Part shown: in pieces, positions 16,005-33,121 of the stretch
Layout of the letters: each line of letters opens with the position of its first letter
Numbering within the stretch: position 1 is the first letter of the stretch
Assembly: GCA_039028935.1 (NCBI GenBank)
Contig: JBCCHD010000035.1
Location: 1 to 35,671, forward strand
DNA from: Pseudomonadota bacterium
Lineage (GTDB): Bacteria; Pseudomonadota; Gammaproteobacteria; Steroidobacterales; SZUA-146
DNA length: 35,671 bases
Reading direction: 5' to 3'
The notes under the pieces: generated by a model
What the model saw: the letters and a program-made list of their open reading frames with translations, nothing else
Databases searched by the model: none
What the model was told of the DNA's origin: nothing
Position numbers and translations under genes: made by a program

Positions 16005-17489
16005 TTAGACGACCAACCGATCCATGAAGTCGATAACACTCGTCGCTTCAAGCGCTTTTTGGTTTTTGCACAGTGCGAAAATCTCTTCGCAGCGATGCGG
16101 GACAAAACGCGTGGCAAGATTGGACTGAAATTTCGCTTCGAGCACGGGGATACCCTCTTCTCGACGGCGACGATGACCGATCGGGTACTCGATCGCGACT
16201 CGCTCCGTGTGGCTACCGTCCTTGAAAAAGACCTGCATCGCGTTGGCAATCGACCGTTTGTCCGGATCGTGGTAATCGGCGCTATAGGACGTATCTTCTT
16301 CAATTTCCATTTTGTCGCGCAGCTCATCAATGATGGGATGCGCCTCGTGAAAATCGTCCTCGTAGTGTTCGGCGACAAGATTACCAAAGGCAAGTGGCAC
16401 GGCGGCCATATACTGTAGGCAGTGGTCGCGGTCGGCGGGATTGGCCAACGGACCGACTTTAGAAATGATACGAATCGCGGATTCGTGCGTGGTGATCACA
16501 ATTTTCTCAATCTCGTCCAAGCGACCCTTCACCTCCGGGTGCAATCGCACGGCCGCTTCGCAGGCCGTTTGGGAGTGAAATTCAGCCGGGAAACTAATCT
16601 TGAATAGGATGTTTTCCATTACATACGTGCCGTAGGGTCGCTGAAACTTGAATTCCCGATCCGCCGGATCTTTACACTTAAGATCAGCGTTGGTCTGACT
16701 GAAGCTGACGTCATAAAACCCCCACTGAGGCGCCGTCAACACTCCCGGGATGCCCATTTCCCCACGCAGCGTCATATCGGCCAGGCGCACACCCCGTGAT
16801 GTGGCATCACCGGCCGCCCACGATTTGCGCGAGCCCGCGTTTGGCGCGTGGCGATACGTACGTAGCGAAGAACCATCGACCCATGCTTGCGACACCGCGG
16901 CCATGATTTGTTCGCGATCACCGCCCATCATGCGTGTAACGACCGCCGTGGTGGCAACCCGTACCAGCAAAACGTGACACAAACCGACACGGTTAAAGCT
17001 GTTTTCAAGAGCCAGCACGCCTTGAATTTCATGGGCTTTGATCATGTATGACAGCACGTCACCCATCGTAAGCGGCGCCCGCCCATTGGCTACGTTAACC
17101 TGGGACAGATAATCCGCCACGGCCAAAATACCGCCGAGGTTATCCGACGGATGCCCCCATTCGGCTGCCAGCCACGTGTCGTTAAAATCGAGCCAGCGAA
17201 TGATGCAACCGATGTCCCATGCCGCTTTTACCGGATCCAGTCGGTATTGTGTGCCCGGCACCCGCGCGCCATACGGTACGGTCGTGCCTTCGACGATGGG
17301 GCCGAGGTGTTTGGTGCACTCGGGAAAGCGTAGCGCGAGGAGACCGCAGCCCAGCGTATCCATTAGACAATTGCGTGCCGTATCACGCGCCTCATCCGAA
17401 CCAATGCTGTCGTCCAGCACGTAGTCCGCAATATCTTGAATGACCTGATCGTAGTCAGGCCGGTTGTTCATATCGACGTTTGCGCTCAT
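16005..17489 (-). CDS. prpD: 2-methylcitrate dehydratase
   Basis: This is a 494-aa enzyme of the MmgE/PrpD family that dehydrates 2-methylcitrate to 2-methyl-cis-aconitate in the propionate-degrading methylcitrate cycle. It follows E. coli PrpD closely as I remember it: [126 protein letters not shown] and [11 protein letters not shown]. The frame runs further upstream into prpC; the ATG at 17489 is chosen by alignment to the usual N-terminus ([14 protein letters not shown]), though its ribosome binding site is weak. It is the last gene of the prpBCD run, 49 nt after prpC. Confidence 0.95.
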
Positions 17490-17538
17490 TGATTTCAGTC
17501 CGTATTGATTAGCAGTATTAAAAAAAGCGGTGTTCGAA

Positions 17539-18666
17539 TCAGCCGCGAGAGGCGAGTGGCACGACGCGCCGCGGCTCCGGCCCAATGTACTCGGCATTTG
17601 GTCGAATAATTCGATTGTCGGCGCGCTGTTCAAACACGTGCGCCGCCCAGCCGGTGGTGCGAGACATGACGAAAATAGGGGTGAACAATTTGGTGGGTAT
17701 ACCCATGAAGTGATACGCAGACGCGTGGAAAAAATCCGCATTACAGAACAGTTTCTTTTCACGCCACATCACTTCTTCACAGCGCACAGACACCGGATAC
17801 AACGTGGTATCGCCTACTTCGTCCGCCAATTTTTCCGACCACTTTTTAATAATGGCGTTACGCGGATCGGATTCGGTGTACACCGCATGGCCAAAGCCCA
17901 TAATTTTTTCTTTGCGCTCGAGCATGCCCAGAATTTCTCGCTCGGCCTCCTCTGGCGACGACCACTGCTCGATCAATGCCATCGCGGCTTCATTGGCACC
18001 GCCGTGAAGCGGACCACGCAGCGACCCAATGGCGCCGGTGATACAGCTATGGATATCGGATAACGTCGACGCGCACACGCGGGCGGTAAACGTGGACGCG
18101 TTAAATTCGTGCTCTGCGTAAAGGATGAGCGAAACCTGCATCACTCGCCGATGCAAGTCCGACGGCGTCTTGCCATGAAGCAAGTGTAGAAACTGTCCGG
18201 CGATCGTATCTTCGCCTGTATCGAGATCAATACGCACACCATCATGACTAAACCGGTACCAATAGCACATCATTCCTGGGAGCGTAGCAATGAGGCGATC
18301 CGCTTTATCTTGTGCTTGCGAGAAATCGGTCTCGGTTTCAAGATTACCGAGCACCGACACGCCTGTGCGCAATACGTCCATGGGATGCGCGTCGCGAGGA
18401 ATCAGTTCGAGCGCGGCTTTTAGCGCCGACGGCAAGTCCATTCGCTCACGAAGGCGCTGCTTGTACGCGGCCAGCTGCGCTTGATTGGGCAGCTCTCCGT
18501 GAAACAGAAGATAGGCCACCTCTTCAAAATCACAATGATCGGCCAAATCGTCCACTTCGTATCCATAGTAAGTCAGACCCGAGTGGCCCATTGCCACTGT
18601 ACAAATCGCGGTCTTTCCCGCCACCTGGCCACGAAGTCCGGCACCGCTTGCTTTCTTGTCCGCCAC
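17539..18666 (-). CDS. prpC: 2-methylcitrate synthase
   Basis: This is a 375-aa member of the citrate synthase family that condenses propionyl-CoA with oxaloacetate. It shows the citrate synthase motifs [12 protein letters not shown] and [14 protein letters not shown], and the segment near [16 protein letters not shown] that carries the catalytic Asp. The N-terminal [21 protein letters not shown] pattern and the prpB/prpD neighbours favour 2-methylcitrate synthase over ordinary citrate synthase. The start is GTG at 18666 with AGGAG about 6 nt upstream. It lies 58 nt after prpB and 49 nt before prpD on the same strand. Confidence 0.95.
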
Positions 18667-18724
18667 GCTACTCTCCTGAATCGAATAATGAATGATAGTT
18701 ACGTTTTAAATGTGACCATCGAGA

Positions 18725-19606
18725 TTATTTATTGCCAAACAGTTCGTCGAGCTTTTGCTCGAACTCGTGATAACCGAGATAGTCGTAGAGCTCTTCGCGC
18801 GTCTGCATAATGTCGACGACCTCTCGCTGGTGACCATCGTTAAGCAGCGCTTGGTAAACGCGCTCGGCGCCGCGATTCATCGCGCGATAGGCGCCGCAGC
18901 AGTACAACACGATGTCCACACCCACCTCACCCAGCTCCGGCGTGCTAAACAGCGGTGTTTTACCAAACTCGGTGATATTCGCCAGAATCGGCACACTGAC
19001 GCTTGAACGAAAGTCACGATACTGTTCGAGTTGATAAATCGCTTCTGGAAAAATCATGTCGGCACCGGCTTCAACGTACGCTGCTGCCCGATCTTGCGCG
19101 GCAGCCATACCCTCATTCGCGAGGGCATCGGTACGCGCCATGATGACAAAACTCTCGTCAATTCGGCCGTCCACCGCGGCTTTTATGCGGTCGACCATTT
19201 CACCAGTCGAGACGATTTCCTTGCCCGGACGATGGCCACAGCGCTTTTGAGCAACTTGATCTTCGATGTGCATACCGGCCGCACCGGCTTTGGCCATCGA
19301 ACGCACAGTACGAGCGATATTAAAGGCGCCGCCGAAACCGGTATCCGCATCGACCAACAATGGCAGATCCGTGACATCGGTAATTCGACGAATATCAATC
19401 AGCACGTCGTCTAGATTACTGATACCCAGATCGGGCATACCCAAAGAATTGGCCGCCACGCCCCCACCTGAAAGATACAACGCCTTGTGGCCAACTCGTT
19501 CTGCCATGCGCGCAGCAAACGCGGTGATCGCACCCACCACCTGCAGCGGCTTATGCTCGGCGACCGCCTGACGCAGCAAGTGTCCTGCTGTGGGTCGTGC
19601 TGACAT
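18725..19606 (-). CDS. prpB: Methylisocitrate lyase
   Basis: This is a 293-aa enzyme of the isocitrate lyase/PEP mutase superfamily that splits 2-methylisocitrate into pyruvate and succinate. The catalytic KRCGH motif is at 121-125 (Cys123). DADTGFGG (86-93), HIEDQV, MARTDA and [12 protein letters not shown] are also present. The ATG at 19606 has GGAG 7 nt upstream and is preferred over a TTG two codons earlier. It is the first enzyme gene after the GntR regulator, 62 nt downstream of it. Confidence 0.96.
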
Positions 19607-19668
19607 GTTCAATCTCCTCTCGCGCCCGGAAAAGTGCGCATCGTTACGTCGTTATCGCCAAAACGGCA

Positions 19669-20379
19669 CTAGGTTTCCGCCGCCATGTCGTCGCCCTGCC
19701 GGGTGGCATGCGCACGAACGCGGCGTTCGATGTTCAGGCGGGCCGCACTGATATGCCGTCGCATCAGTATTTCAGCCAGCTCGCCATCTCGTTCCTGGAT
19801 CGCCGCAAAAATACGTTGGTGCTCGACCAGTGCGCGGCGTGGGCGCCCGCGATGCGCACTAAATTTGCGTCGGTAAAGTCGCATAAGCGGATAATGGTCC
19901 TGACAGAGCGCGGTCGTTAACAAGGCGTTTCCGCATCCGGCGGCGATCTGAAAGTGAAAATCCAGATCGCCCTCTTGACGAAAATACTCGCGTCCCTCGT
20001 GTCGCTCGATCTCCTTCTCGTGCGTGGTAAGCAGGGCTCCGAGCTGATCGACTTGTGCATCGCTCATGTTCTGGGCCGCCAGGCGACACGTCATCCCTTC
20101 CAGCGCTTCGCGCACCTGATACAGCTCAATGAGCTGGTGCTCGGACAACGACACCACTCGCGCACCCGCATTGGGGGTCGTGGTGACCAAACGCTGAGAT
20201 TCCAGCCGCCGTAGCACGTCACGAATGGGTCCGCGGCTTGTACCAAACCGCATGGCCAATTCCGCTTCACGCAGTTTCTGGCCGGGCGCGAGCTCCCCTT
20301 CCACAATCGCGTGCTGCAGCTGCGCAAGCAGTCGAGTGGCGCGAGGTGCCGGGTTGGACTGGGTGTCGGTGGATTGCAC
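19669..20379 (-). CDS. GntR/FCD-family regulator, probable controller of the prp operon
   Basis: The protein has an N-terminal winged-helix GntR domain (LAPGQKLREAELAMRFGTSRGPIRDVLRRLESQRLV) and a C-terminal FCD ligand domain with metal-binding-like residues (DLDFHFQIAAGCGN and later His). The open frame begins at an ATG at 20514, but a good promoter and two operator-like palindromes lie inside that extension. I therefore prefer the GTG at 20379 (236 aa), which has only a weak ribosome binding site. GntR regulators next to prpBCD typically repress the methylcitrate genes and respond to a cycle intermediate. Here the regulator is first in the operon and probably autoregulates. The family and neighbourhood are solid; the start and effector are inferred. 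Confidence 0.85.
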   Translation of the reverse strand: MQSTDTQSNPAPRATRLLAQLQHAIVEGELAPGQKLREAELAMRFGTSRGPIRDVLRRLESQRLVTTTPNAGARVVSLSEHQLIELYQVREALEGMTCRLAAQNMSDAQVDQLGALLTTHEKEIERHEGREYFRQEGDLDFHFQIAAGCGNALLTTALCQDHYPLMRLYRRKFSAHRGRPRRALVEHQRIFAAIQERDGELAEILMRRHISAARLNIERRVRAHATRQGDDMAAET

Positions 20380-20392
20380 GAAAAGGCTCAGA

Positions 20393-20402
20393 TTGTCGAC
20401 AA
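20393..20402. promoter_or_regulatory. Operator-like palindrome 2 (TTGTCGACAA)
   Basis: This perfect 10-bp palindrome matches the TTGT-N2-ACAA layout often bound by GntR/FCD proteins. It lies just downstream of the predicted transcription start of the gntR-prp operon. Its centre is 63 bp, about six helical turns, from the other copy. Confidence 0.6.
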
Positions 20403-20433
20403 AACGGATCAGAACGACCCTGAAACTGGCGAG

Positions 20434-20462
20434 ATTTTGATGCGGATAAAGCGGATTGTCAA
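20434..20462 (-). promoter_or_regulatory. Predicted promoter of the gntR-prpBCD operon
   Basis: On the minus strand TTGACA (a perfect -35 box, 20462-20457) is followed by 17 nt and CAAAAT (20439-20434, 4/6 to the -10 consensus). The -35 box lies inside operator-like palindrome 1. A start near 20427 would give a leader of about 48 nt to the GTG at 20379. Confidence 0.6.
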
Positions 20463-20467
20463 CAATC
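20454..20467. promoter_or_regulatory. Operator-like palindrome 1 (GATTGT-CA-ACAATC)
   Basis: Two perfect 6-bp arms are separated by 2 bp, and the core is the same TTGT-N2-ACAA as the site at 20393-20402. It overlaps the -35 box of the gntR-prp promoter, so a bound regulator would block RNA polymerase. It is also about 115 bp upstream of the divergent TonB receptor gene. Confidence 0.65.
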
Positions 20468-20580
20468 AAGGTAGGCGCGAGCAACCGCGCTGACCAGTCC
20501 CGATCGCGCGACATTTCCGGTACACTCTCGATCCGGCCAAGATTCGTTCCAATGCCTCGCCTGCCAAGAGATCACCCGCA

Positions 20581-22741: not shown

Positions 22742-24922
22742 CTAACTGGCTTTTTTCTCCAGTCGTCGCGCGTGCAACAACGGCTCCGTGTATCCACTTG
22801 GTTGACGAGCGCCTTTGATCACCAAATCACAGGCCGCGGCAAACGCGATGCTCTGGTCAAGGTTGTCGCTCATCGGCTGATACGCCGGATCACCCGCATT
22901 TTGTCGGTCGACCACTTCAGCCATTTCACGCATCACGCCAACGATCTGCGCATCGGTGCAAATGCCGTGATGCAGCCAGTTGGCAAGAAGCTGGCTCGAT
23001 ATGCGCAAGGTGGCTCGGTCTTCCATTAAACCAACATCATTGATGTCCGGCACCTTTGAACAGCCCACACCCTGATCGATCCAGCGTACGACGTAACCCA
23101 GAATCGTCTGGCAACTATTGCGAAGTTCTTGCGCGACGGTGGCCTCGTCCAAACGGCTTGTCGCTAAGGGCGGCATCAGAATGTCCGCCAGATGCGCGTG
23201 GTCGCGAGTGATCAAGTCGCGCTGTACCGCCGACACGTCAATAGCGTGATAGTGCAGGGCATGTAGCGTTGCGGCGGTCGGTGAGGGCACCCATGCGCAG
23301 TTGGCGCCGGCGTCCAAATGTCCACGCTTGGTCTGCACCATTTCGTTTAACTCATCAGGCTTGGGCCACATACCTTTGCCAATCTGCGCTCGGCCCGGCA
23401 GCCCACAGCGAATCCCAACATCGACATTCCAACGTTCATACGCGTCGATCCAAGGTTGCGCCTTAATTTGATCTTTATTGAGCATGGGCCCGGCATGCAT
23501 GCTTGTGTGAATCTCATCACCTGTGCGATCCAAGAAGCCCGTGTTGATAAACACCAACCGGTCCTGAACGGCACGAATACACTCCTTGAGATTGACCGTC
23601 GTACGGCGCTCCTCATCCATCACCCCTACTTTCAGAGTAAACCGTGCTAACCCAAGCATATCCTCGACAAGACCGAACAACCGATCGGTGAACGCCACTT
23701 CGTCGGGGCCGTGCATTTTCGGTTTGACGATATAGACACTGCCGCTGCGACTGTTACGCGCGCCGGCCTGCTTTCGTAAATCGTACAGCGCGCACGTACT
23801 GGTTATAACGGCGTCGAGTATGCCCTCTGGAATTTCGCGTCCGTCGGCATACAGCACGGCATTATTGGTCATAAGATGTCCAACATTACGCACCAGCAAC
23901 AGGCTGCGACCGGGAAGCACTAATTCGTTTCCGTATGGATCGCTGTAAACCCGATCGCCAGCCAGCACACGCTCAACGGTTTTGTCCCCTTTGCTGAACG
24001 ACACACTCAAGGTGCCCCGCATTAAACCCAACCAGTTCCGGTAGACCGTTACCTTGTCGTCCGCATCGACCGCGGCCACAGAATCCTCACAATCTTGGAT
24101 CGTGGTGACGGCCGATTCGAGCCGCACATCCGCCAGGTGGGCATTCGCGTCGCGTCCGATCGGATGTTCATCGTCAATCACCAATTCGATGTGCAGCGAG
24201 TGATTGCAAAAGAGTAGCGTGAGTGCTTTGCCATCGCTGGTATGACCAACAAACTGCGCGGGGTCCTTGAGGACTGTTTCACCGTCCTCAAAAAGCACTT
24301 CGATACTAGTGACATCATCTTTGTGCTGAAGTTTGTACAGCGCCGCATCCGCATGACTCCCGCGCTCAAGCGGAATCGCAGTATCCAGAAAGTCCGCCGC
24401 ATAGCGAATAACGGCATGTCCGCGCGCGGGATTGTAGCCACCGCCACGGGTTTTGCCGTCAGATTCGTCGATCACATCGGAGCCATATAGCGCGTCGTAG
24501 AGGCTACCCCAACGCGCGTTTGCGGCGTTGAGCGCAAAACGCGCATTGCTCACAGGCACGACCAACTGGGGGCCGGCCACCTTGGCAATTTCGGCATCGA
24601 CGTGCTGAGTCGTAATGGAAAACTCGTCGCCCTCCTCCACTAGATAGCCGATATCACGCAGCATCGCGGTATACGCATCCGCATCCCACTCGGCGTCATG
24701 ATGCCGTGCATGCCAACGATCAATCTGCTCTTGAAGCGAGGCCCGAAGCTCGAGCAGTCGGGCGTTCTCAGGCGCCAACTCATTCACAATACGCTCGAGT
24801 CCCGACCAAAACTCACTGGCGTTGAATTCAATATCCGGTAGCAGTTCGTTTTCAACAAACGCTTTAAGCGAGGCGGCAACGTGAAGCGCACCTATCTCAA
24901 TGTAGTCGGATGGGGCAGTCAT
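22742..24922 (-). CDS. glcB: Malate synthase G
   Basis: This is a 726-aa monomeric malate synthase, condensing glyoxylate with acetyl-CoA to malate. Landmarks of isoform G are VPVSNARFALNAANARWGSLYDALYGSD, DCEDSVAAVDADDK, VYRNWLGLMRG, GRSLLLVRNVGHLMT, YIVKPKMHGPDEVAF, MDEERRTTVNLKECI, FINTGFLDRTGDEIHTSM and GANCAWVPSPTAATLHALHYH. The length matches the family. The ATG at 24922 has GGGAG 6 nt upstream; an in-frame ATG at 24940 lies before that signal. The gene is 98 nt downstream of the acyl-CoA ligase in the same direction, so it may be the distal part of the carnitine operon, consuming acetyl-CoA derived from acetoacetate. It may alternatively have its own promoter. Confidence 0.96.
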   Translation of the reverse strand: MTAPSDYIEIGALHVAASLKAFVENELLPDIEFNASEFWSGLERIVNELAPENARLLELRASLQEQIDRWHARHHDAEWDADAYTAMLRDIGYLVEEGDEFSITTQHVDAEIAKVAGPQLVVPVSNARFALNAANARWGSLYDALYGSDVIDESDGKTRGGGYNPARGHAVIRYAADFLDTAIPLERGSHADAALYKLQHKDDVTSIEVLFEDGETVLKDPAQFVGHTSDGKALTLLFCNHSLHIELVIDDEHPIGRDANAHLADVRLESAVTTIQDCEDSVAAVDADDKVTVYRNWLGLMRGTLSVSFSKGDKTVERVLAGDRVYSDPYGNELVLPGRSLLLVRNVGHLMTNNAVLYADGREIPEGILDAVITSTCALYDLRKQAGARNSRSGSVYIVKPKMHGPDEVAFTDRLFGLVEDMLGLARFTLKVGVMDEERRTTVNLKECIRAVQDRLVFINTGFLDRTGDEIHTSMHAGPMLNKDQIKAQPWIDAYERWNVDVGIRCGLPGRAQIGKGMWPKPDELNEMVQTKRGHLDAGANCAWVPSPTAATLHALHYHAIDVSAVQRDLITRDHAHLADILMPPLATSRLDEATVAQELRNSCQTILGYVVRWIDQGVGCSKVPDINDVGLMEDRATLRISSQLLANWLHHGICTDAQIVGVMREMAEVVDRQNAGDPAYQPMSDNLDQSIAFAAACDLVIKGARQPSGYTEPLLHARRLEKKAS

Positions 24923-25020
24923 GCTGAACTCCCTTGTCATTAAACATAAAAAGCCGAGGTTGAACTCGAGCGAGGCCCGAATTGTACAAGGAAGCCAGTG
25001 TAAATGGATACGTCGACGCG

Positions 25021-27135
25021 TTAATTCCTATGCGTTGCGCCCCAGCGAACCAGTGCATCCACCGCAACCGCACCACCTGCGCTCGATGCCGAGTCTTGTC
25101 GCGGCCGAACCATCAGTGGATTAACGTCAAGTTCGACCAGACGATCGCAATGATCAACTGCGAAGCGCGCAATCGCGGCGATAGCCTCCACCGCCGCATC
25201 GATATCCCCCACCGGTCGGCCGCGATAACCGGTCAACAGTGGATAACACGCTAGCTGGTGCAGCGCCTCTGTGATTTGGGCTTTCGTGACGGGCAGTAGC
25301 AACTGCACGCTGTCGTTCAAGAGTTCAACCAATACACCGCCGGCCCCGATCACCAACACCTGCCCAAAGGCCTCGTCAGCGCTCACGCCAACTAGTAATT
25401 CCGCCACCGCATCGGTCACCATGCTCTCGATCAGCACACGATTACTGATCACGCTGAGCTCAGCGGCCTGCGTGCGCGCGGCTTCTGAACTGGATACATT
25501 GAGCCGAACGGCATTGAGCTCAGTTTTGTGCGCAAGCGATTCGCCAAGCGCTTTGATCACGACGGGGAAGCCTACCGCGCGCGCCATTTCCGCCGCGTCA
25601 CGAACACTCCCTTCGCGCGATTCGGGGATCGGTACGCCATAGGCGGCGAGCAACTGCTTGCTTTCGTATTCATCGAGCGTGGCGCCGGGTACGAGCACAT
25701 GCGGTTGTGCCAAGGGCGCGAGTGAAGCATGGTTTTGTTGCGCGCGACCAACCGCGGCGGCATGGGCGATCGCCGTTAAACACTCTCTCAGTCCTTGCAT
25801 CGGTGCGACGCCAAGCTCCATAAGTCGCGCCCGCGCACTAGCCGGAAAATTCTCGGGTAGCGACGCCACCACTACGACCCGAGTGTCCGTCGCGTCCGAC
25901 GCGGCACAGAGCGCCCTCTCGGCGACTTTCCACGATTCGATCTCACAGGAATCGGGGGGTGGATAGTCCAAGATCAGCAGCGCGCATTCGAGCGGATCGC
26001 GAAGCAGAGTCGAGAACGCGGATGACAGCGTGTCGTAATCGCCCCATGAATAGGTGTGATAGTCCAAAGGATTGGAGATGTGGACACGATCACCCAAAAC
26101 CATCTGGAGTGCGTCGCGTGTATCGTTGGTCAATGACGGAAATCGCACGTCTAGCGGCTCTGCCAAATCAGCCAGATGCGACGCCTCCCCGCCGGAACAA
26201 CTCATCGATGCAAGTCGCGGGCGCGTATCGTTCACACTCGTCCGCTCCGATTTCAATACGCCGAACGATACAAATTTGAGCGTTTCAAGAAACTCCGAAA
26301 GCGTCTGACACCGGGCGATTCCATAGCGCTGAAACAACGTGTCGATTAACGCGTCTGGGCGCGCCAGTGAACGGGTATGGCTCAAGGCCATCTGGGCCCC
26401 CAGCGAAGAACTGCCGGTTTTCAATGCCACGAGCGGGATGCCTTGCGCCAAGGCACGAAGCGCTGCTTGCGTGAATTGCTCAAGATCGCTGATACCTTCG
26501 AGGTGCAAGCCAATGGCCGTCACGCGGTCATCGTCGAGCAGCGCATGGATGTAGTCATGCACGCCAAGCTGTGCGTTATTGCCCATTGCCACCACATAGC
26601 TAAACGTCAATCCTCGTTGCTGGAACGTGACGTTTATTCCAATGTTGCCACTTTGCACTAGCAGTGCCGGGCCGCTGGCTGTTTGCTCGCCTCCAAAATG
26701 ATCCGGCCACAGCGCGACGCCGTCCAAAAAGTTGAGAAAACCGTGACAATTGGGACCCACGATCGGCATGGCGCCAGCCTGTTGAACAAGCTGCTGTTGT
26801 GCCGCTTCTCCATCGCCGCCCGCCTCGGCAAAGCCCGAGGCGTAGCACACGGCGCCACCGGCGCCCAAGTGGGCAAGTTGTCCAACCGCCTCGATTGATT
26901 GTGCGCCAGACACACCCAAAAAGACCGCATCAGGAGGCGTTCGGAGTGCCTCAATCGACCGTACACAGGGCACCCCAGCCAGATCAGGGCGCGTAGGATG
27001 TACCGCGACGATCGTCCCACCGTAACCAATTGCGCGACACTTATTAATAACCGTCGCACCCGCAGCACCGCCGATCACCGCAATCGAACGCGGGCGCAAT
27101 AGGCGAGTGAGGTCAACGTGTCGCGTGCTATTCAC
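25021..27135 (-). CDS. NDP-forming acyl-CoA ligase (fused alpha-beta type)
   Basis: This 704-aa protein has the acetate--CoA ligase (ADP-forming)-like order. A CoA-binding Rossmann domain (about 10-105, RSIAVIGGAAGATVINK) comes first, then a succinyl-CoA-ligase-like domain (about 125-290), and a C-terminal ATP-grasp domain (about 480-690, DEYESKQLLAAYGVPIPES ... FPVVIKALGESLAHKTELNAV). The expected phosphohistidine is His253 in SHTRSLARPDALID, although the usual Gly after HT is Arg. I chose the GTG at 27135 (GGAAG 6 nt upstream), because the longer frame would overlap the CaiD-like gene by 38 nt. It lies 25 nt after that gene. In this operon it probably activates gamma-butyrobetaine, crotonobetaine or carnitine with CoA; the substrate is inferred. 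Confidence 0.85.
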   Translation of the reverse strand: MNSTRHVDLTRLLRPRSIAVIGGAAGATVINKCRAIGYGGTIVAVHPTRPDLAGVPCVRSIEALRTPPDAVFLGVSGAQSIEAVGQLAHLGAGGAVCYASGFAEAGGDGEAAQQQLVQQAGAMPIVGPNCHGFLNFLDGVALWPDHFGGEQTASGPALLVQSGNIGINVTFQQRGLTFSYVVAMGNNAQLGVHDYIHALLDDDRVTAIGLHLEGISDLEQFTQAALRALAQGIPLVALKTGSSSLGAQMALSHTRSLARPDALIDTLFQRYGIARCQTLSEFLETLKFVSFGVLKSERTSVNDTRPRLASMSCSGGEASHLADLAEPLDVRFPSLTNDTRDALQMVLGDRVHISNPLDYHTYSWGDYDTLSSAFSTLLRDPLECALLILDYPPPDSCEIESWKVAERALCAASDATDTRVVVVASLPENFPASARARLMELGVAPMQGLRECLTAIAHAAAVGRAQQNHASLAPLAQPHVLVPGATLDEYESKQLLAAYGVPIPESREGSVRDAAEMARAVGFPVVIKALGESLAHKTELNAVRLNVSSSEAARTQAAELSVISNRVLIESMVTDAVAELLVGVSADEAFGQVLVIGAGGVLVELLNDSVQLLLPVTKAQITEALHQLACYPLLTGYRGRPVGDIDAAVEAIAAIARFAVDHCDRLVELDVNPLMVRPRQDSASSAGGAVAVDALVRWGATHRN

Positions 27136-27160
27136 GGCATGCTTCCGACAGTGCTGCCCG

Positions 27161-27952
27161 TCAGCGGCCGCGCCAGACAGGGTCTCGCTTTTCAGCAAAG
27201 GCCTTGAAGCCCTCGAGATTATCCTCGCTGTTATAAAGCGTATCCACGGTGGCGAGCTGACTCTTAGTGATCGCGTTCAGAGCGTCTTGAAATTTCATGT
27301 TCTCGGCCTCGCGCACGACCTCTTTGATGGCCGCATAGACCAATGGCGGTCCGGACGCGAGCAATCGTGCGGTTTCCCAAGCCTTGTCGAGCAGTTCGTC
27401 CGCGGGTACCACATGATTCACAAATCCCCATCGATGTGCCTCGTGGGCGTCCAGCCATCGCCCGGTCAGCAGCATCTCCATCGCGATGTGATAGGGAATG
27501 CGCTTGGGGAGTTTGATTGATGCGGCGTCAGCCAGCGTGCCAGAACGTATTTCCGGTAGTGCGTACGTTGCATGATCCGCACTCAAGATGATGTCGGCAG
27601 ACAGCGCGAGCTCCAAACCACCACCACAGCATATGCCGTTGACAGCACACACCACCGGTTTATTGAAATTACCGAGCTCCTGAATGCCACCGAAACCGCC
27701 AACCCCATAGTCACCGTCGACCTCATCACCGTCCGCCGCCGCTTTCAAGTCCCAACCGGGACAGAAAAACTTCTCACCACTGGCGGTGATAATGGCTACG
27801 CGCAAGGTAGGATCGTCGCGAAAATCACGAAATACTTGACCCATTACGCGACTTGTTGCCAAGTCGATCGCGTTGGCTTTAGGACGGTCCAGCACGACTT
27901 CAAGCACACCGTCCTGCTGGCGAGTCTTAATCGGAGTAGATGTCTTCGTCAT
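27161..27952 (-). CDS. caiD: CaiD-like crotonobetainyl-CoA hydratase (carnitinyl-CoA dehydratase)
   Basis: This is a 263-aa crotonase-family protein. It tracks E. coli CaiD strongly as I remember it: LDRPKANAID, TSRVMGQVFRDFRDDPTLRVAIIT, GEKFFCPGWDLKAAA, GGFGG, and a C-terminal FAEKRDPVWRGR. The paired catalytic glutamates of the crotonase fold are present (Glu114 in GGGLELA and Glu134 in LPEIRSG). The known reaction interconverts crotonobetainyl-CoA and L-carnitinyl-CoA. AGGA lies 6 nt before the ATG. The gene is 116 nt after an acyl-CoA dehydrogenase and 25 nt before the ligase. The anaerobic cai operon of enterobacteria uses this step for carnitine reduction; here it probably runs in the hydrating direction. 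Confidence 0.88.
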   Translation of the reverse strand: MTKTSTPIKTRQQDGVLEVVLDRPKANAIDLATSRVMGQVFRDFRDDPTLRVAIITASGEKFFCPGWDLKAAADGDEVDGDYGVGGFGGIQELGNFNKPVVCAVNGICCGGGLELALSADIILSADHATYALPEIRSGTLADAASIKLPKRIPYHIAMEMLLTGRWLDAHEAHRWGFVNHVVPADELLDKAWETARLLASGPPLVYAAIKEVVREAENMKFQDALNAITKSQLATVDTLYNSEDNLEGFKAFAEKRDPVWRGR

Positions 27953-28068
27953 GACAATTCCTGTTGGAAAAAATTAATGTTAGATCCACCCCGTCACCGT
28001 GTACCGTCGGTGGATCAAGCGGCGCACCAAGCACACGCTCTACGCATTCGACCCTTGTGCTGGATACG

Positions 28069-29229
28069 CTATGATTCATGAGGTCGCAGTAGCTCACGAC
28101 TAATAATGTGGCGCTGAATTTCAGACGTGCCATCCCAAATTCGCTCCACGCGTGCGTCGCGCCAAAAACGCTCCAGCGGCAAATCTTGCATGAGCCCCAT
28201 ACCGCCATAAATCTGCAGCGCTTCGTCCGTGACACTCGCCAACATCTCGGTTGAAAACAGTTTCGCACTAGCAATGGCGCGATTGGCAGGCATGCCCTGC
28301 TCAAGCTGCCAAGCAGCGGCTAACGTCAAATAATCTGCTGCATCGATTGACGTCACCATGTCCGCTAGCTTAAACGACACGCCTTGAAACTTTCCGATCG
28401 GCTGGCCGAACTGTTTACGTTCAGCCGCGTAAGATACCGCGAGGTCCAACGCGCGACGGGCACGGCCAACGCACATAGCCGCCACGGTGAGACGTGTTCC
28501 TGCCAACCACGTATTGGCAAGCGCAAAGCCCTGATGCAAGCCGCCTAACATCTGTCGTTTATGCACACGACATTGATCGAAACTCAGTACGCAGTTGTGA
28601 TATCCGCGGTGCGAGACCGACTCGTAGCCTTTTTGTATTTCAAAGCCCGGCGTATCACGATCAACCAAAAAACAGCTGATTTTCTTTTTTGTTCCTTTGG
28701 GGGTTTGTTCTTCGCCGGTTGCAACGAAAACAATGACAAAATCAGCGATATCGGCGTGACTAATAAAGTGTTTGGTGCCGGAGATTATCCAGTCATCGCC
28801 ATCAGCTTTCGCCGCACATTGCATACCCCGCAAGTCTGAACCCGCACCCGGCTCGGTCATCGCCAGCGCGTCGTATTTTTCGCCACGCACGGCCGGCAAC
28901 AGGTACCGCTCACGCTGCTCGCCTTCGCACGCCGACAATATTCCGGAAGGCCGTCCAAAGAAAACCGTCAGTGCCATGGACGCACGGCCCAGTTCACGTT
29001 CAATAAGCGTAAAATTTAAGTCCCCAAGACCGCCGCCGCCAATGTCTTCTGGCATATTCGCGGCAAAAAAACCGAGCTCTTTGCACTTTCTTGCTATCTC
29101 ATCGCCTAGATCACGCGGCACGCTGCCCGTGCGTTCGACCAAGTCTTCATGGGGATAGATTTCTTGCTCGACAAACTTTCTGACGGTATCGACCAACAGA
29201 GTCTGCTCATCACTGAGACCAAAATGCAT
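28069..29229 (-). CDS. Acyl-CoA dehydrogenase of the carnitine cluster
   Basis: This is a 386-aa acyl-CoA dehydrogenase with the usual three-domain order and motifs (DALAMTEPGAGSDLRGM, SGTKHFISHA, ERKQFGQPIGKFQGVSFKLADM, QIYGGMGLMQDLPLERFWRDARVERI). At the site where short- and medium-chain enzymes keep the catalytic Glu (YEGTSEIQ), this protein has WDGTSEIQ, that is Asp366. The base may be elsewhere, as in isovaleryl-CoA dehydrogenase, or Asp may serve. The ATG at 29229 has GGAG 7 nt upstream; an ATG 15 nt earlier precedes that signal. It follows the carnitine dehydrogenase gene by 47 nt. A plausible role is oxidation of gamma-butyrobetainyl-CoA to crotonobetainyl-CoA. It is not a close CaiA match. 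Confidence 0.85.
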   Translation of the reverse strand: MHFGLSDEQTLLVDTVRKFVEQEIYPHEDLVERTGSVPRDLGDEIARKCKELGFFAANMPEDIGGGGLGDLNFTLIERELGRASMALTVFFGRPSGILSACEGEQRERYLLPAVRGEKYDALAMTEPGAGSDLRGMQCAAKADGDDWIISGTKHFISHADIADFVIVFVATGEEQTPKGTKKKISCFLVDRDTPGFEIQKGYESVSHRGYHNCVLSFDQCRVHKRQMLGGLHQGFALANTWLAGTRLTVAAMCVGRARRALDLAVSYAAERKQFGQPIGKFQGVSFKLADMVTSIDAADYLTLAAAWQLEQGMPANRAIASAKLFSTEMLASVTDEALQIYGGMGLMQDLPLERFWRDARVERIWDGTSEIQRHIISRELLRPHES

Positions 29230-29276
29230 TGCGCCACTCCTCATTCATTCTCAGTCGCCATCGTGTGCACGCGACA

Positions 29277-30734
29277 TTATTTTTTCTGACCCACATGCCG
29301 CCCCGCCCCGTCGGGCAACGGCAGCGCTTGATGCTGAGCATAAAGAGGCAGGAGTCGATCAAGCACGATCTGATCCGCCGCACACACCTTGCCGGCCTCA
29401 CTGTTCACATGCAGAAGCAATTGCTCAGCGGTTGCCACGCAGCAGTCGTCATCCGCGCGATGTATCGCGTGAAAAACATGGAGTCGCTTAGCGTCCGCGT
29501 ACAACAGTTGCGTGGTGCTGTACAGGTGCTGCCCAGCCTTGGCTTCGTTCAGATGACGGATGTGCGTCTCAACGGTGTAGTAACTCTTGCCGGTCGCCAC
29601 GTACTCTTGATCAACACCCAGGCGCTGCAGTAGGCAGTCGGAGGTATCGCCGAACACCTGAAGGTATCGAAACTCCGTCATATGACCGTTGTAGTCGATC
29701 CACCCTGGCAACACCGACAGCTGCAGCATACGCATTGGCGACGTGTTGTCGTGTGCCGAGTGTGATGTGTTGCGGAGCATTTCATCTTGCGCCGCCAGCA
29801 CTGTGCCCGCACCCCAGCGGCGACTTTTCAGTGCCCGTAGGATACCGACGAGGTTGTCATCGCGAATACGCTCAAGCTCTCGAATACCATAGGCCCCCGA
29901 CTGATCGTCGGATTGATCGGCGATTTTTTGCACAAGCTCTTCCGTCAGTTCGGGCACGTCCATGAGCTTTGTCCAGGGCCACTCTAGCGCCGGGCCGAAC
30001 TGGCGAATAAAGTGTGCCATGCCCTCTTCACCGCCCGCCAACCGGTAGGTCTCGAACAAACCCATTTGCGCCCAACGCAAACCGAAACCCAAGCGAATGA
30101 TGTCGTCAATTTCTTCGGTCGTGGCGACGTCGTCGTTAACTAGCCAGAGCGCTTCGCGCCACACGGCTTCAAGCAAACGATCCGCCACGTGTGCATCAAT
30201 TTCTTTTCGAACGACAATGGGCTTCATGCCGATGTTCTGCAATGTCGACCGGGCGGATTCGAGCGTTTGCTGTGCATCAAGACCCACGAGTTCAACCACC
30301 GGCAGCAGATAAACCGGATTAAATGGATGCGCCACGATAATAGCGCCTGGATGACGCGCACCCTCTCGCAGCTGCGTCGGCGTAAAGCCCGATGTGGACG
30401 ACGCCAAAATGGCGTGAGGTGCCGCTGCCTGAATATCGCGAAACACTTGGTGCTTAAGCTCGAGCACCTCTGGCACACTTTCTTGAATCCACTGCGCGTC
30501 GCTCACCGCCTCGGCCAGGGTTGGCGCAAACGTCAACGAACCTTCCTTTGGCAATGGCCAGTCCAGTGTCGCCGGCAAACTCATGCGCGCATTTTCGACC
30601 ACTTCGGATACTTTTCGTTTGGCTTGCGAGGCGGGGTCAAAAACCCGTACATCCCAACCCATCAACAGAAAGCGAGCTGCCCAGCCACCGCCGATAACGC
30701 CGCCACCGACAATCGCCGCTATGGGGGCCTTCAT
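29277..30734 (-). CDS. lcdH: L-carnitine dehydrogenase fused to hotdog thioesterase
   Basis: This is a 485-aa two-domain enzyme. Residues 1-315 form a 3-hydroxyacyl-CoA-dehydrogenase-like NAD domain (GGGVIGGGW at 10-18, ESVPEV, HPFNPVYLLPVVELV with catalytic-type His136 and Glu148). This oxidises L-carnitine to 3-dehydrocarnitine. Residues about 335-470 form a 4HBT hotdog thioesterase (VLPGWIDYNGHMTEFRYLQVF, with the DYNGHM signature at 347-352). In the characterised Sinorhizobium meliloti pathway the fused thioesterase hydrolyses betainyl-CoA to glycine betaine. Its ATG overlaps the BKACE stop (ATGA), so the two steps are translationally coupled. Confidence 0.93.
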   Translation of the reverse strand: MKAPIAAIVGGGVIGGGWAARFLLMGWDVRVFDPASQAKRKVSEVVENARMSLPATLDWPLPKEGSLTFAPTLAEAVSDAQWIQESVPEVLELKHQVFRDIQAAAPHAILASSTSGFTPTQLREGARHPGAIIVAHPFNPVYLLPVVELVGLDAQQTLESARSTLQNIGMKPIVVRKEIDAHVADRLLEAVWREALWLVNDDVATTEEIDDIIRLGFGLRWAQMGLFETYRLAGGEEGMAHFIRQFGPALEWPWTKLMDVPELTEELVQKIADQSDDQSGAYGIRELERIRDDNLVGILRALKSRRWGAGTVLAAQDEMLRNTSHSAHDNTSPMRMLQLSVLPGWIDYNGHMTEFRYLQVFGDTSDCLLQRLGVDQEYVATGKSYYTVETHIRHLNEAKAGQHLYSTTQLLYADAKRLHVFHAIHRADDDCCVATAEQLLLHVNSEAGKVCAADQIVLDRLLPLYAQHQALPLPDGAGRHVGQKK

Positions 30735-31642
30735 GCCGGCGCTCGTTTAACGAGACCCAGTTTGTCGCGGACCTGTTGGGGTGTCATCAATCGTCCGCCC
30801 ATTCGCGTAACAATACCGGCGGCGCGTTCAACCAGTTGCTCGTTAGTGGCCAGCACGCCTTTGTCGAGATAGAGATTATCTTCAAGTCCAACACGCACAT
30901 TGCCGCCTGCCAAAACCGCGGCCGCGACATACGCCATTTGATGCCGGCCGATCGAAAAAGCAGAGAACGTCCAGTCTTCCGGAATATTGTTGACCATAGC
31001 CATAAGCGTGTTGAGATCATCTGGCGCGCCCCAAGGGATGCCCATGCATAACTGCACGAGCGCTGGACCCGGCAGCGTGCCCTCTTCGACCAATTTCTTC
31101 GCAAACCACAAATGCCCGGTGTCGAACGCTTCAATCTCAACCCGCACGCCACACTCCACCATGATGTTGGCCATCGCGCGCAGCATCCCGGGCGTGTTGG
31201 TCATCACATAATCGGCTTCCGCGAAATTCATCGTGCCGCAGTCCAGTGTGCAAATCTCCGGACGACTGTCCAACACATGCGCCATGCGTTCCTCTGCACC
31301 GACCATATCGGTCTGCTCTGAATTAAACGGTAGAGGTTGCTCCGCCGGGCCGAAAACAATGTCACCACCCATGCCGGCCGTAAGATTCAACACTACATCC
31401 GTATCGCTGGCGCGAATACGTTCGGTGACTTCTCGATACAATTCAACCCGCCGTGATGGCGCTCCCGAATCCGGCTCGCGCACATGGCAATGCACCACTG
31501 CCGCACCCGCTTTCGCGGCCGCGATCGCACTGTTTGCGATCTGCTCCGGTGTGCGTGGCACGTGCGGCGATTTGTCTTGCGTGCCGCCCGATCCAGTAAC
31601 GGCACACGTAATAAACACATCTTGATTAGGAGAGAGCGGCAT
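30731..31642 (-). CDS. BKACE-family enzyme, probable 3-dehydrocarnitine cleavage
   Basis: This is a 303-aa zinc enzyme of the beta-keto acid cleavage (DUF849) family. The metal motif HCH is at 51-53 (AAVVHCHVREPDSG) and the likely third ligand is the Glu in NVRVGLEDNLY near residue 259. LTAGMGGD and EIEAFDTGHLWF are also typical. In the known carnitine pathway this enzyme uses acetyl-CoA to split dehydrocarnitine into betainyl-CoA and acetoacetate. The ATG at 31642 has GAGGA 9 nt upstream; an ATG three codons earlier directly touches that signal. It lies 34 nt after the dioxygenase gene and overlaps the carnitine dehydrogenase gene by 4 nt. Confidence 0.93.
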   Translation of the reverse strand: MPLSPNQDVFITCAVTGSGGTQDKSPHVPRTPEQIANSAIAAAKAGAAVVHCHVREPDSGAPSRRVELYREVTERIRASDTDVVLNLTAGMGGDIVFGPAEQPLPFNSEQTDMVGAEERMAHVLDSRPEICTLDCGTMNFAEADYVMTNTPGMLRAMANIMVECGVRVEIEAFDTGHLWFAKKLVEEGTLPGPALVQLCMGIPWGAPDDLNTLMAMVNNIPEDWTFSAFSIGRHQMAYVAAAVLAGGNVRVGLEDNLYLDKGVLATNEQLVERAAGIVTRMGGRLMTPQQVRDKLGLVKRAPA

Positions 31643-31676
31643 ACACAGCATTCCTCAACAAAGTAGCCATCGATAA

Positions 31677-32816
31677 TCAGGCTGGTAAATGGGGGGCGGT
31701 CTCGGGGTACTCGCGATACAGTACACGCAGGCGACTGTCGATTTCGTTCCAGTCAATGTAATAGCCCCGCAGATGCCGAGGCCCGGAGTTGGGGTCAAAG
31801 CCGGTGCGTCCATGAAGCACTCGCCGGTTGGCCATAATCACCATTTCACCCGGTTCGAGTCGATACTCGAAGCGATAGCGGTCGCTGCGAATGCGCCGCA
31901 TGAGATTCTGATACGCGGCATAAAACGTCACCATATCGTCCGGCTCCAGGTCAGGGATGTCCGCCAAGTGCGCGTTGAAGGTCAACGCATCAAACTGACC
32001 GTCGTCTTTTTGGCGAATCACCGGCCAACGGGCAATAAGGTCACAACTCTCATCGTAGAATCGCCACGGCACGCTGAACTTTTTGAGCACGTCAAATACG
32101 TCCGGCTCTTCATCAGCCAGATCGCGGCACACTTGGAAACCGTCCGCAAACACCGAATCGCCACCATCCGCGCCGTTGACAATGCAATGTAGAAATTGTG
32201 CGCCCGGAATGAGTTCTTGATTGGCCAGATCCGTGTGCAGAGGCAGTGACAATGCCGTGTAGGCAAGGTTGATCGGGTCCGGTTTGTTTTTCACCTCAAA
32301 CATCACGCCGTAATTCGTCTCGCGTTTAAATCCAATCAAATCGCCAAAACGCTCTCCGGAATGCGGGTCATCCGCAAGCCGATCGATCACTACAATTCCT
32401 ATTTGTTTGAACGCGTGCAACATGGCCGCAAGCTGACGCGGGTCGTCGCGGCAATCTTTCGCATGAAATCGGGGTAGCTCGCCGAGGGAATCGGCCGACC
32501 ACGTTTTTTGCATGACGTTCGCCGGGTCAAAGCGTCGCGTACCGAGTCGATGACGAAACAACCAATCGGCATCAAATGTGCAAGTCGAATCACTGCCCGG
32601 CCATTCAAGCGATAGCGAGTCCGCGGTGAAACGCACATTGTGGGGGCGGATATCCAGCGCAACGCTAGTTAAATCAAATGTGCGTTCTTTGGTGTCGGGG
32701 TGAAATCCGCTTGGATCGTTATCACGAAGCCAGATGTAGGGGTAGAGCGATTCTGCGCCGTTTTCAAACGACGCGGATAAGCCAATGTCACCCTGTTCAA
32801 TTGCTTTGAGTTTCAT
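31677..32816 (-). CDS. Gamma-butyrobetaine hydroxylase-like 2-oxoglutarate dioxygenase
   Basis: This 379-aa Fe(II)/2-oxoglutarate enzyme resembles BBOX1, which hydroxylates gamma-butyrobetaine to L-carnitine. The N-terminal beta domain (LYPYIWLRDNDPSG ... FDLTSVALDIRP) precedes the TauD/TfdA-like catalytic domain. The iron ligands are His194 and Asp196 (LPLHTDLANQ) and His336 (MANRRVLHGRTGF), and the 2-oxoglutarate-binding Arg lies in RHLRGYYIDW. The N-terminal cysteines that bind zinc in BBOX1 are replaced. The ATG at 32816 has AGGTG 7 nt upstream and is preferred over a GTG two codons earlier. It is the first enzyme gene of the carnitine operon, preceded by a leader with a short ORF. Other trimethylated amines are possible substrates. 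Confidence 0.9.
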   Translation of the reverse strand: MKLKAIEQGDIGLSASFENGAESLYPYIWLRDNDPSGFHPDTKERTFDLTSVALDIRPHNVRFTADSLSLEWPGSDSTCTFDADWLFRHRLGTRRFDPANVMQKTWSADSLGELPRFHAKDCRDDPRQLAAMLHAFKQIGIVVIDRLADDPHSGERFGDLIGFKRETNYGVMFEVKNKPDPINLAYTALSLPLHTDLANQELIPGAQFLHCIVNGADGGDSVFADGFQVCRDLADEEPDVFDVLKKFSVPWRFYDESCDLIARWPVIRQKDDGQFDALTFNAHLADIPDLEPDDMVTFYAAYQNLMRRIRSDRYRFEYRLEPGEMVIMANRRVLHGRTGFDPNSGPRHLRGYYIDWNEIDSRLRVLYREYPETAPHLPA

Positions 32817-32870
32817 AGACACGCACCTGCGGCCGAAGCGGCCTCATGTCGATGAGAGAATTCGCGGCGG

Positions 32871-32971: not shown

Positions 32972-33092
32972 GCCTGGACTCCTGCAATATTTTGCCACGC
33001 TACTCCAAGATGCGAGCCGGGGCAATAATATTCGCGACAGCGGCGTGCCCGTCACGGCTCTGGTGTGGTGCAGCAATCGATTAACGTAAAAC

Positions 33093-33121
33093 GCCGCGCC
33101 GGTTACCCGACACGGCGCGGC
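33093..33121 (-). terminator. Terminator hairpin after sat-cysC
   Basis: GCCGCGCCG and CGGCGCGGC form a perfect 9-bp stem around an 11-nt loop. On the minus strand it is followed by G then TTTT. It lies 18 nt beyond the stop of the ATP sulfurylase/APS kinase gene. Confidence 0.75.

Follow-up and report, generated by a model that had tools for sequence, protein, structure and literature searches.

A known gamma-butyrobetaine gene set with an uncommon added BBOX-like dioxygenase in a predicted carnitine operon of a gammaproteobacterium

Based on an analysis of 35,671 nucleotides of contig JBCCHD010000035.1 (the window; Pseudomonadota bacterium, Steroidobacterales, assembly GCA_039028935.1), we suggest with good confidence that positions 25021-32822 hold a six-gene catabolic operon for the conversion of gamma-butyrobetaine, as well as crotonobetaine and L-carnitine, to glycine betaine. 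The enzyme activities and the co-transcription are predictions, and the malate synthase G gene that follows the six would be merely adjacent. In other words, this is a known five-enzyme gene set in a gammaproteobacterium, together with an uncommon added dioxygenase.

In the proposed route, an NDP-forming acyl-CoA ligase would convert gamma-butyrobetaine to gamma-butyrobetainyl-CoA, an acyl-CoA dehydrogenase (ACAD) would convert the latter to crotonobetainyl-CoA, and a CaiD-like hydratase would form carnitinyl-CoA. In such a CoA route, the hydroxyl group comes from water and the electrons go to the electron transfer flavoprotein (ETF). The thioesterase domain of a fused carnitine 3-dehydrogenase (CDH-TE) would then release free carnitine, and its dehydrogenase domain (CDH) would oxidise carnitine to 3-dehydrocarnitine. 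BKACE would turn 3-dehydrocarnitine and acetyl-CoA into betainyl-CoA and acetoacetate, and the same thioesterase domain would finally liberate glycine betaine. The leading BBOX-like dioxygenase would be an accessory enzyme that hydroxylates a trimethylammonium acid, either gamma-butyrobetaine or a related betaine, into the same trunk.

All seven genes of the run, including malate synthase G, lie on the minus strand, and their order as given in a preliminary description of this DNA was confirmed, as were its family names by family searches (Table 1). BKACE (PF05853), malate synthase G and carnitine 3-dehydrogenase (NF005716, 754.9 bits against a cut-off of 592) score above curated cut-offs, and the last carries a fused 4HBT_2 thioesterase domain. 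With GTG 27135 taken as the ligase start, the intergenic gaps along the run are 25, -4, 32, 116, 25 and 80 bp. The ligase frame is open from TTG 27198, which overlaps the hydratase gene; because most relatives align from residue ~23-30, GTG 27135 is the likelier start, leaving the 25-bp gap. A strong hairpin after SAT/APSK sets the run apart from the genes upstream.

Table 1. Features of the predicted carnitine operon and its boundaries (positions in the window)
Feature	Position	Strand	Remarks
Terminator-like hairpin 3' of SAT/APSK	33091..33118	-	Upstream boundary of the unit; folding z -3.3 for the stretch folded
BBOX-like Fe(II)/2-oxoglutarate dioxygenase	31677..32822	-	First gene in the run; starts at GTG 32822 or ATG 32816
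BKACE	30731..31651	-	PF05853, 336 bits; predicted to convert 3-dehydrocarnitine + acetyl-CoA to betainyl-CoA + acetoacetate
Carnitine 3-dehydrogenase fused to a thioesterase domain (CDH-TE)	29277..30734	-	NF005716 above cut-off; 3HCDH_N and 4HBT_2 domains
Acyl-CoA dehydrogenase (ACAD), putative gamma-butyrobetainyl-CoA dehydrogenase	28069..29244	-	Family match and relatives
CaiD-like hydratase, putative crotonobetainyl-CoA hydratase	27161..27952	-	Best NCBIfam model is crotonobetainyl-CoA hydratase, under cut-off
NDP-forming acyl-CoA ligase, putative gamma-butyrobetainyl-CoA synthetase (BcoAB type)	25021..27135	-	CoA_binding_2, Succ_CoA_lig and ATP-grasp_5 domains
Ligase-malate synthase gap	24941..25020	-	Only TGTACAAT of the window; weak hairpin and T run at 24969-24954, z -0.9 (stretch folded)
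Malate synthase G	22742..24940	-	Above curated cut-off; judged a neighbour outside the carnitine unit

Five of the seven genes cluster beyond chance, because they recur as a group in dozens of genomes. Named genomes were scanned with an alignment of 14 dehydrogenases, and the best 80 of at least 581 confirmed stretches were kept; this sample leans toward close relatives and holds many rhizobia. BKACE, CDH, ACAD, ligase and hydratase occur all together in 51 of these 80 loci, and in 47 of the 61 that have full flanks. Taken singly, 75 of the 80 have the ligase and 72 the hydratase; BKACE and CDH are each present in 56, and a thioesterase domain could be detected in 46. The core linkage is conserved across Alpha- and Gammaproteobacteria but extends to neither the dioxygenase nor malate synthase G. 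The preliminary description was right to place the CoA-route genes and the CDH and BKACE genes in one pathway unit and to note a BBOX-like gene alongside. In 369 genomes of the class, CDH is matched at E<=1e-90 in 13 and the ligase at E<=1e-130 in 14 (the source genome of the window counted in both), and CDH lies on the same contig within ~11 kb of the ligase in 10 of the 13 other genomes with a ligase. In the remaining three (G212, G251 and G322), no CDH was found on the contig within that distance, the contig of G251 being just 5.5 kb long. The window's order of ACAD, hydratase and ligase recurs at four loci (L039, L040, L044 and L059), one of them labelled Woeseiaceae, while most others have ACAD, ligase and hydratase; at L039, two neighbouring genes encode proteins with DAO and GCV_T domains, a combination known from dimethylglycine/sarcosine dehydrogenases.

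The ACAD is 61-75% identical to 13 relatives from genomes of the order and the class and 70-79% identical to those of the 80 best loci, compared with 25-37% for the other dehydrogenases of its own genome. In butyryl-CoA dehydrogenase, the Glu of the IYEGTSE motif is the catalytic base. The ACAD of the window has Asp at this place (IWDGTSE), as do 74 of the 81 loci in which the motif was found, the other 7 having Glu (99 scanned, L039-L136 and L181, duplicates included).

Neither the CoA route and its ligase nor their linkage to carnitine catabolism is new. For instance, the 2019 study by Bazire et al. (J Bacteriol 201:e00772-18) is reported to describe five enzymes that carry out seven steps from gamma-butyrobetaine to glycine betaine in Sinorhizobium meliloti, and the window has the same kind of set, with ligase, ACAD, hydratase, CDH-thioesterase and BKACE in one cluster. 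In S. meliloti Ak57 (CP090106.1, labelled pSymB, 3.7 Mb; locus L181), the gene table lists a regulator, BKACE, carnitine 3-dehydrogenase, ACAD, a stretch without a listed gene, and caiD. By tblastn, the ligase fills the unlisted stretch, giving the order regulator-BKACE-CDH-ACAD-ligase-caiD, which differs from that of the window in that the ligase precedes the hydratase. This ligase is in two pieces in different frames (L181, 13388-15414), which reflects a frameshift or an error of sequencing in the strain; Ensifer (L041) has it as an unbroken frame of 682 residues. The five genes are co-directional in both organisms, with identities of 72% for BKACE, 57% for CDH, 57% for the thioesterase domain, 76% for ACAD, 76% for the hydratase and 43-46% for the ligase. 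By contrast, a profile search found no BBOX-like gene in L181, and a GlxA-family regulator adjoins the genes there. The S. meliloti dehydrogenase SM2011_c01638 acts on both carnitine and betainyl-CoA, as stated in an excerpt of PMC12482172 citing Bazire 2019. The name bcoAB occurs in the acknowledgement of PMC8364193, as far as the excerpt goes, and from gene position we infer that it denotes this NDP-forming ligase. For HK4, an excerpt of PMC3546705 describes how 4-(trimethylamino)butyrate is thioesterified with CoA, dehydrogenated and hydrated to carnitine, which is then degraded. These reactions are those proposed for the window, and on the HK4 side they are known as chemistry; a table in PMC2131755 puts HK4 under gamma-butyrobetaine hydroxylase. 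A layout with this ligase beside CDH and BKACE is, contrary to the preliminary description, widespread: most of the best loci and S. meliloti have the core, and HK4 has the chemistry. The Escherichia coli cai operon has related dehydrogenase and hydratase chemistry but is reductive and uses CaiB/CaiC, unlike the window. Neither CaiB nor CaiC was found in a search confined to the seven genes, and the ACAD (166 bits against 540 for CaiA, NF002885) and the hydratase (310 against 500 for CaiD, NF002936) fall below the curated cut-offs; a reductive operon of the CaiABCD type was therefore rejected.

The leading BBOX-like dioxygenase is the uncommon part of this operon. It has no tblastn match within any of the 80 best loci, and a profile of ten family members detected a BBOX-like gene near the cluster in only one of 99 other loci (the 80 best, 18 from class genomes and L181, some of them short or overlapping). 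The gene at that one locus, in G417, is itself part of the profile, is ~31% identical to that of the window, reaches 395 of the 400 bits of the TmpA cut-off and lies between the CoA genes and BKACE-CDH. A homologue at E<=1e-20 is present in 26 of 66 genomes (48 from the 80 loci and 18 class genomes, the source genome included). The highest identities among them are 47% in G464 and G117, with 26-38% in the others; in both G464 and G117, the relative has no adjoining carnitine genes, and the carnitine cluster lies elsewhere in the genome. At E<=1e-70, five of the 369 class genomes, including the source genome, have a homologue, and the best of these (53%, G200) is beside a BCCT transporter gene.

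By alignment to human BBOX and TmpA, the dioxygenase retains the HxD...H iron ligands (H196, D198 and H337) and the 2-oxoglutarate Arg (R349). It also has aromatic residues (Y171, F175, which is Trp in human BBOX, Y188 and Y355) at positions that we take to be those surrounding the trimethylammonium group in the human enzyme. These residues, the sequence family and the first anion-binding Asn (N185) are common to the window dioxygenase, human BBOX1 (PDB 3ms5/4bg1) and TmpA (6npb), whereas the N-terminal cysteines of BBOX1 are absent. The second anion-binding Asn of both BBOX1 and TmpA is Ala in the window dioxygenase: human N293, matched by eye by counting on the alignment, corresponds to A284, which is followed by H285. 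In seven aligned members of the subfamily, His285 is found in all and Ala284 in six. According to an excerpt of PMC9296572, aromatic residues around the trimethylammonium group are common to BBOX and TmpA, and the anionic group of the substrate is held by Asn191 and Asn293 in human BBOX and by Asn187, Asn287 and Arg288 in TmpA. To judge from its residues, the dioxygenase looks built for a trimethylammonium acid, yet it lacks a feature that defines both BBOX and TmpA. It scores 279.3 bits on the BBOX model (TIGR02409, cut-off 414.75) and 285.4 bits on the TmpA model (NF049936, cut-off 400), and TmpA is its better PDB match (185 versus 163 bits). A TmpA function was rejected on the missed cut-off and the replacement of Arg288. 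Phosphonate genes occur in one of four annotated regions around relatives (L183, ~8 kb away). In Rhizobium leguminosarum (L184, 10004-13975), a relative lies near genes for the oxidation of formaldehyde (gfa and the gene for S-(hydroxymethyl)glutathione dehydrogenase), a setting that may hint at demethylation by this relative.

Two alternatives for the dioxygenase have to be weighed. It could be a genuine gamma-butyrobetaine hydroxylase that gives carnitine directly alongside the CoA route, which we rate somewhat short of an even prospect. The retained iron ligands, Arg, aromatic residues and N185 are consistent with this idea, as is the 25-bp gap between the dioxygenase and BKACE genes. In addition, gene neighbourhoods suggest that most proteins of the BBOX clade serve carnitine metabolism, the more divergent ones perhaps not (PMC9296572, in part), and islands of SAR11 join BBOX, CDH and BKACE (PMC12421898, in part). 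It is at odds with the score below the BBOX cut-off, the better match to TmpA and the change of Asn293 to Ala284 with His285 beside it; moreover, a second route to carnitine would seem redundant. Alternatively, the enzyme may take another trimethylammonium or N-methylated acid as its substrate and so widen the substrate range of the trunk, a possibility that we rate about as high. The altered anion site is conserved in the subfamily, the best relative in the class sample is next to a BCCT transporter gene, and relatives at 40-51% identity lie outside carnitine clusters, all of which fits a different substrate. However, the sequence names no substrate, and gamma-butyrobetaine would best suit a gene that leads a carnitine operon. 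Thus, of the two entry routes that had been claimed, the presence of the CoA set and of a BBOX-like gene stands, while the dioxygenase falls under the BBOX cut-off and is without one anion-binding Asn, which leaves the second entry plausible. We tentatively consider that one operon could encode two mechanistically distinct ways of hydroxylating gamma-butyrobetaine, a single O2-dependent step and a CoA- and water-dependent sequence of four steps, which join at carnitine. No description of a combined BBOX and CoA-route operon was found among the open-licence papers searched. A related arrangement, an Arctic SAR11 island, shares BBOX with CDH and BKACE with the window, but no ligase, ACAD or hydratase is named in the portion of the text of PMC12421898 examined. 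The further suggestion that the two routes serve growth under varying oxygen is unsupported: HK4 grows aerobically (PMC2131755, in part), and NarG, the single marker searched, has no match above cut-off in the source genome.

Malate synthase G is probably an old neighbour of SAT/APSK outside the carnitine operon. In the congener G002, which has no carnitine gene at this place, malate synthase G (70%) comes immediately after SAT/APSK (82%), and a TonB receptor gene and a GntR gene come next, as in the window. TGTACAAT lies upstream of malate synthase G in all three congeneric genomes, with its TACAAT 46-64 bp short of the end of the stretch used, and occurs only once in each of the whole window (both strands), L207 and L208. 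An unlikely alternative is that malate synthase G is a seventh member of the operon that drains the acetyl-CoA made from acetoacetate. The 80-bp gap on the same strand would fit this, as would the finding of no other malate synthase in the genome, which has an isocitrate lyase-family protein on contig C20. On the other hand, the gene has no match in the 80 best loci or in the 18 class-genome loci, and a weak hairpin with a T run precedes it. On the arrangement in G002, this absence and the kept TGTACAAT, membership was rejected, and with it the earlier notion that malate synthase G closes the operon.

In the second congener, G001, SAT/APSK at one contig end is followed by fragments of BBOX and ACAD, a short hydratase end and part of the ligase, and another contig has fragments of CDH and ligase and then malate synthase G. 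Because these fragments lie between SAT/APSK and malate synthase G, the operon, including the dioxygenase, fills one slot in the genus; it is complete in one species, in pieces in G001 and absent in G002. The fused fragments of G001 (L208 and L209) could reflect operon decay by true deletions or a mixed assembly, and G002 could have lost the operon or never had it.

Several observations weigh against our proposal. The ligase, ACAD, hydratase and dioxygenase fit the expected families, yet all are under the curated specific cut-offs, and ligase identity is just 38-52% across the 80 best loci. CDH was not detected in 24 of the 80; some contigs end nearby, but 14 of the 61 loci with full flanks are also without it, and at such loci the CoA trio may serve another purpose. 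In the order, CDH reaches E<=1e-60 in only 3 of 59 genomes, one of them the source genome. The genus has two other members, and neither passes that threshold; one of them, G001, has the fragments described above. Around other BBOX-family genes, 10 loci with flanks of <=11 kb, 9 of them in other genomes, gave no carnitine-type BKACE or CDH; L174 of G417, outside those 10, is the exception and has both. Finally, the 116-bp gap between ACAD and hydratase (27960-28070, minus strand) has a hairpin with a GGTGGATC stem and a T run some bases on (z -1.8), and therefore a single transcript is not certain. Nevertheless, that the ligase, ACAD and hydratase handle ordinary short-chain fatty acids and lie beside carnitine genes by chance is very unlikely: the missed carnitine-specific cut-offs and the full-flank loci without CDH would fit, but the linkage conserved in both classes, the S. 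meliloti cluster and the absence of BKACE and CDH at the seven paralogue loci of the source genome (L002-L008, 1.5-kb flanks) argue against it, and chance clustering of fatty-acid genes was rejected on synteny.

Glycine betaine formed by the proposed operon would probably be demethylated by a corrinoid methyltransferase cluster on another contig. Contig C42 of the source genome has genes for an MttB-family methyltransferase, a corrinoid protein, a methyltetrahydrofolate:corrinoid-type methyltransferase, RACo, a DmdA-like protein and FAD oxidase-like proteins, and resembles the MtgBCD system for glycine betaine demethylation of marine bacteria (PMC12478193, in part); we infer that it completes the route. 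This second quaternary-amine cluster (L173; G000 contig C42:8000-27000) also has a BBOX paralogue, with Phe, His and His at three of the four aromatic positions. Three BCCT transporters are present in the genome.

The GC content and GC3 of the module are close to those of its neighbours, and composition gives no support for a foreign island. Near the operon, window positions 16005-20514 (minus strand) have PrpD-like, PrpC-like and PrpB-like genes and a GntR-like regulator gene, a set for the 2-methylcitrate cycle; the PrpC-like, PrpB-like and GntR-like names were assigned from reading the sequence. At 203-4573 (minus strand), a protein kinase-domain protein is followed by a protein with PEGA and FGE-sulfatase domains.

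A known gene set for carnitine precursors is kept from rhizobia to Gammaproteobacteria, and this helps to annotate genes that are now simply called acyl-CoA dehydrogenase or ligase. Should both entries act on gamma-butyrobetaine, the organism would offer a clear case for studying why cells retain an oxygenase shortcut next to a CoA route. If the dioxygenase does not use gamma-butyrobetaine, it would mark a subfamily whose anion site is altered and to which no substrate is assigned.

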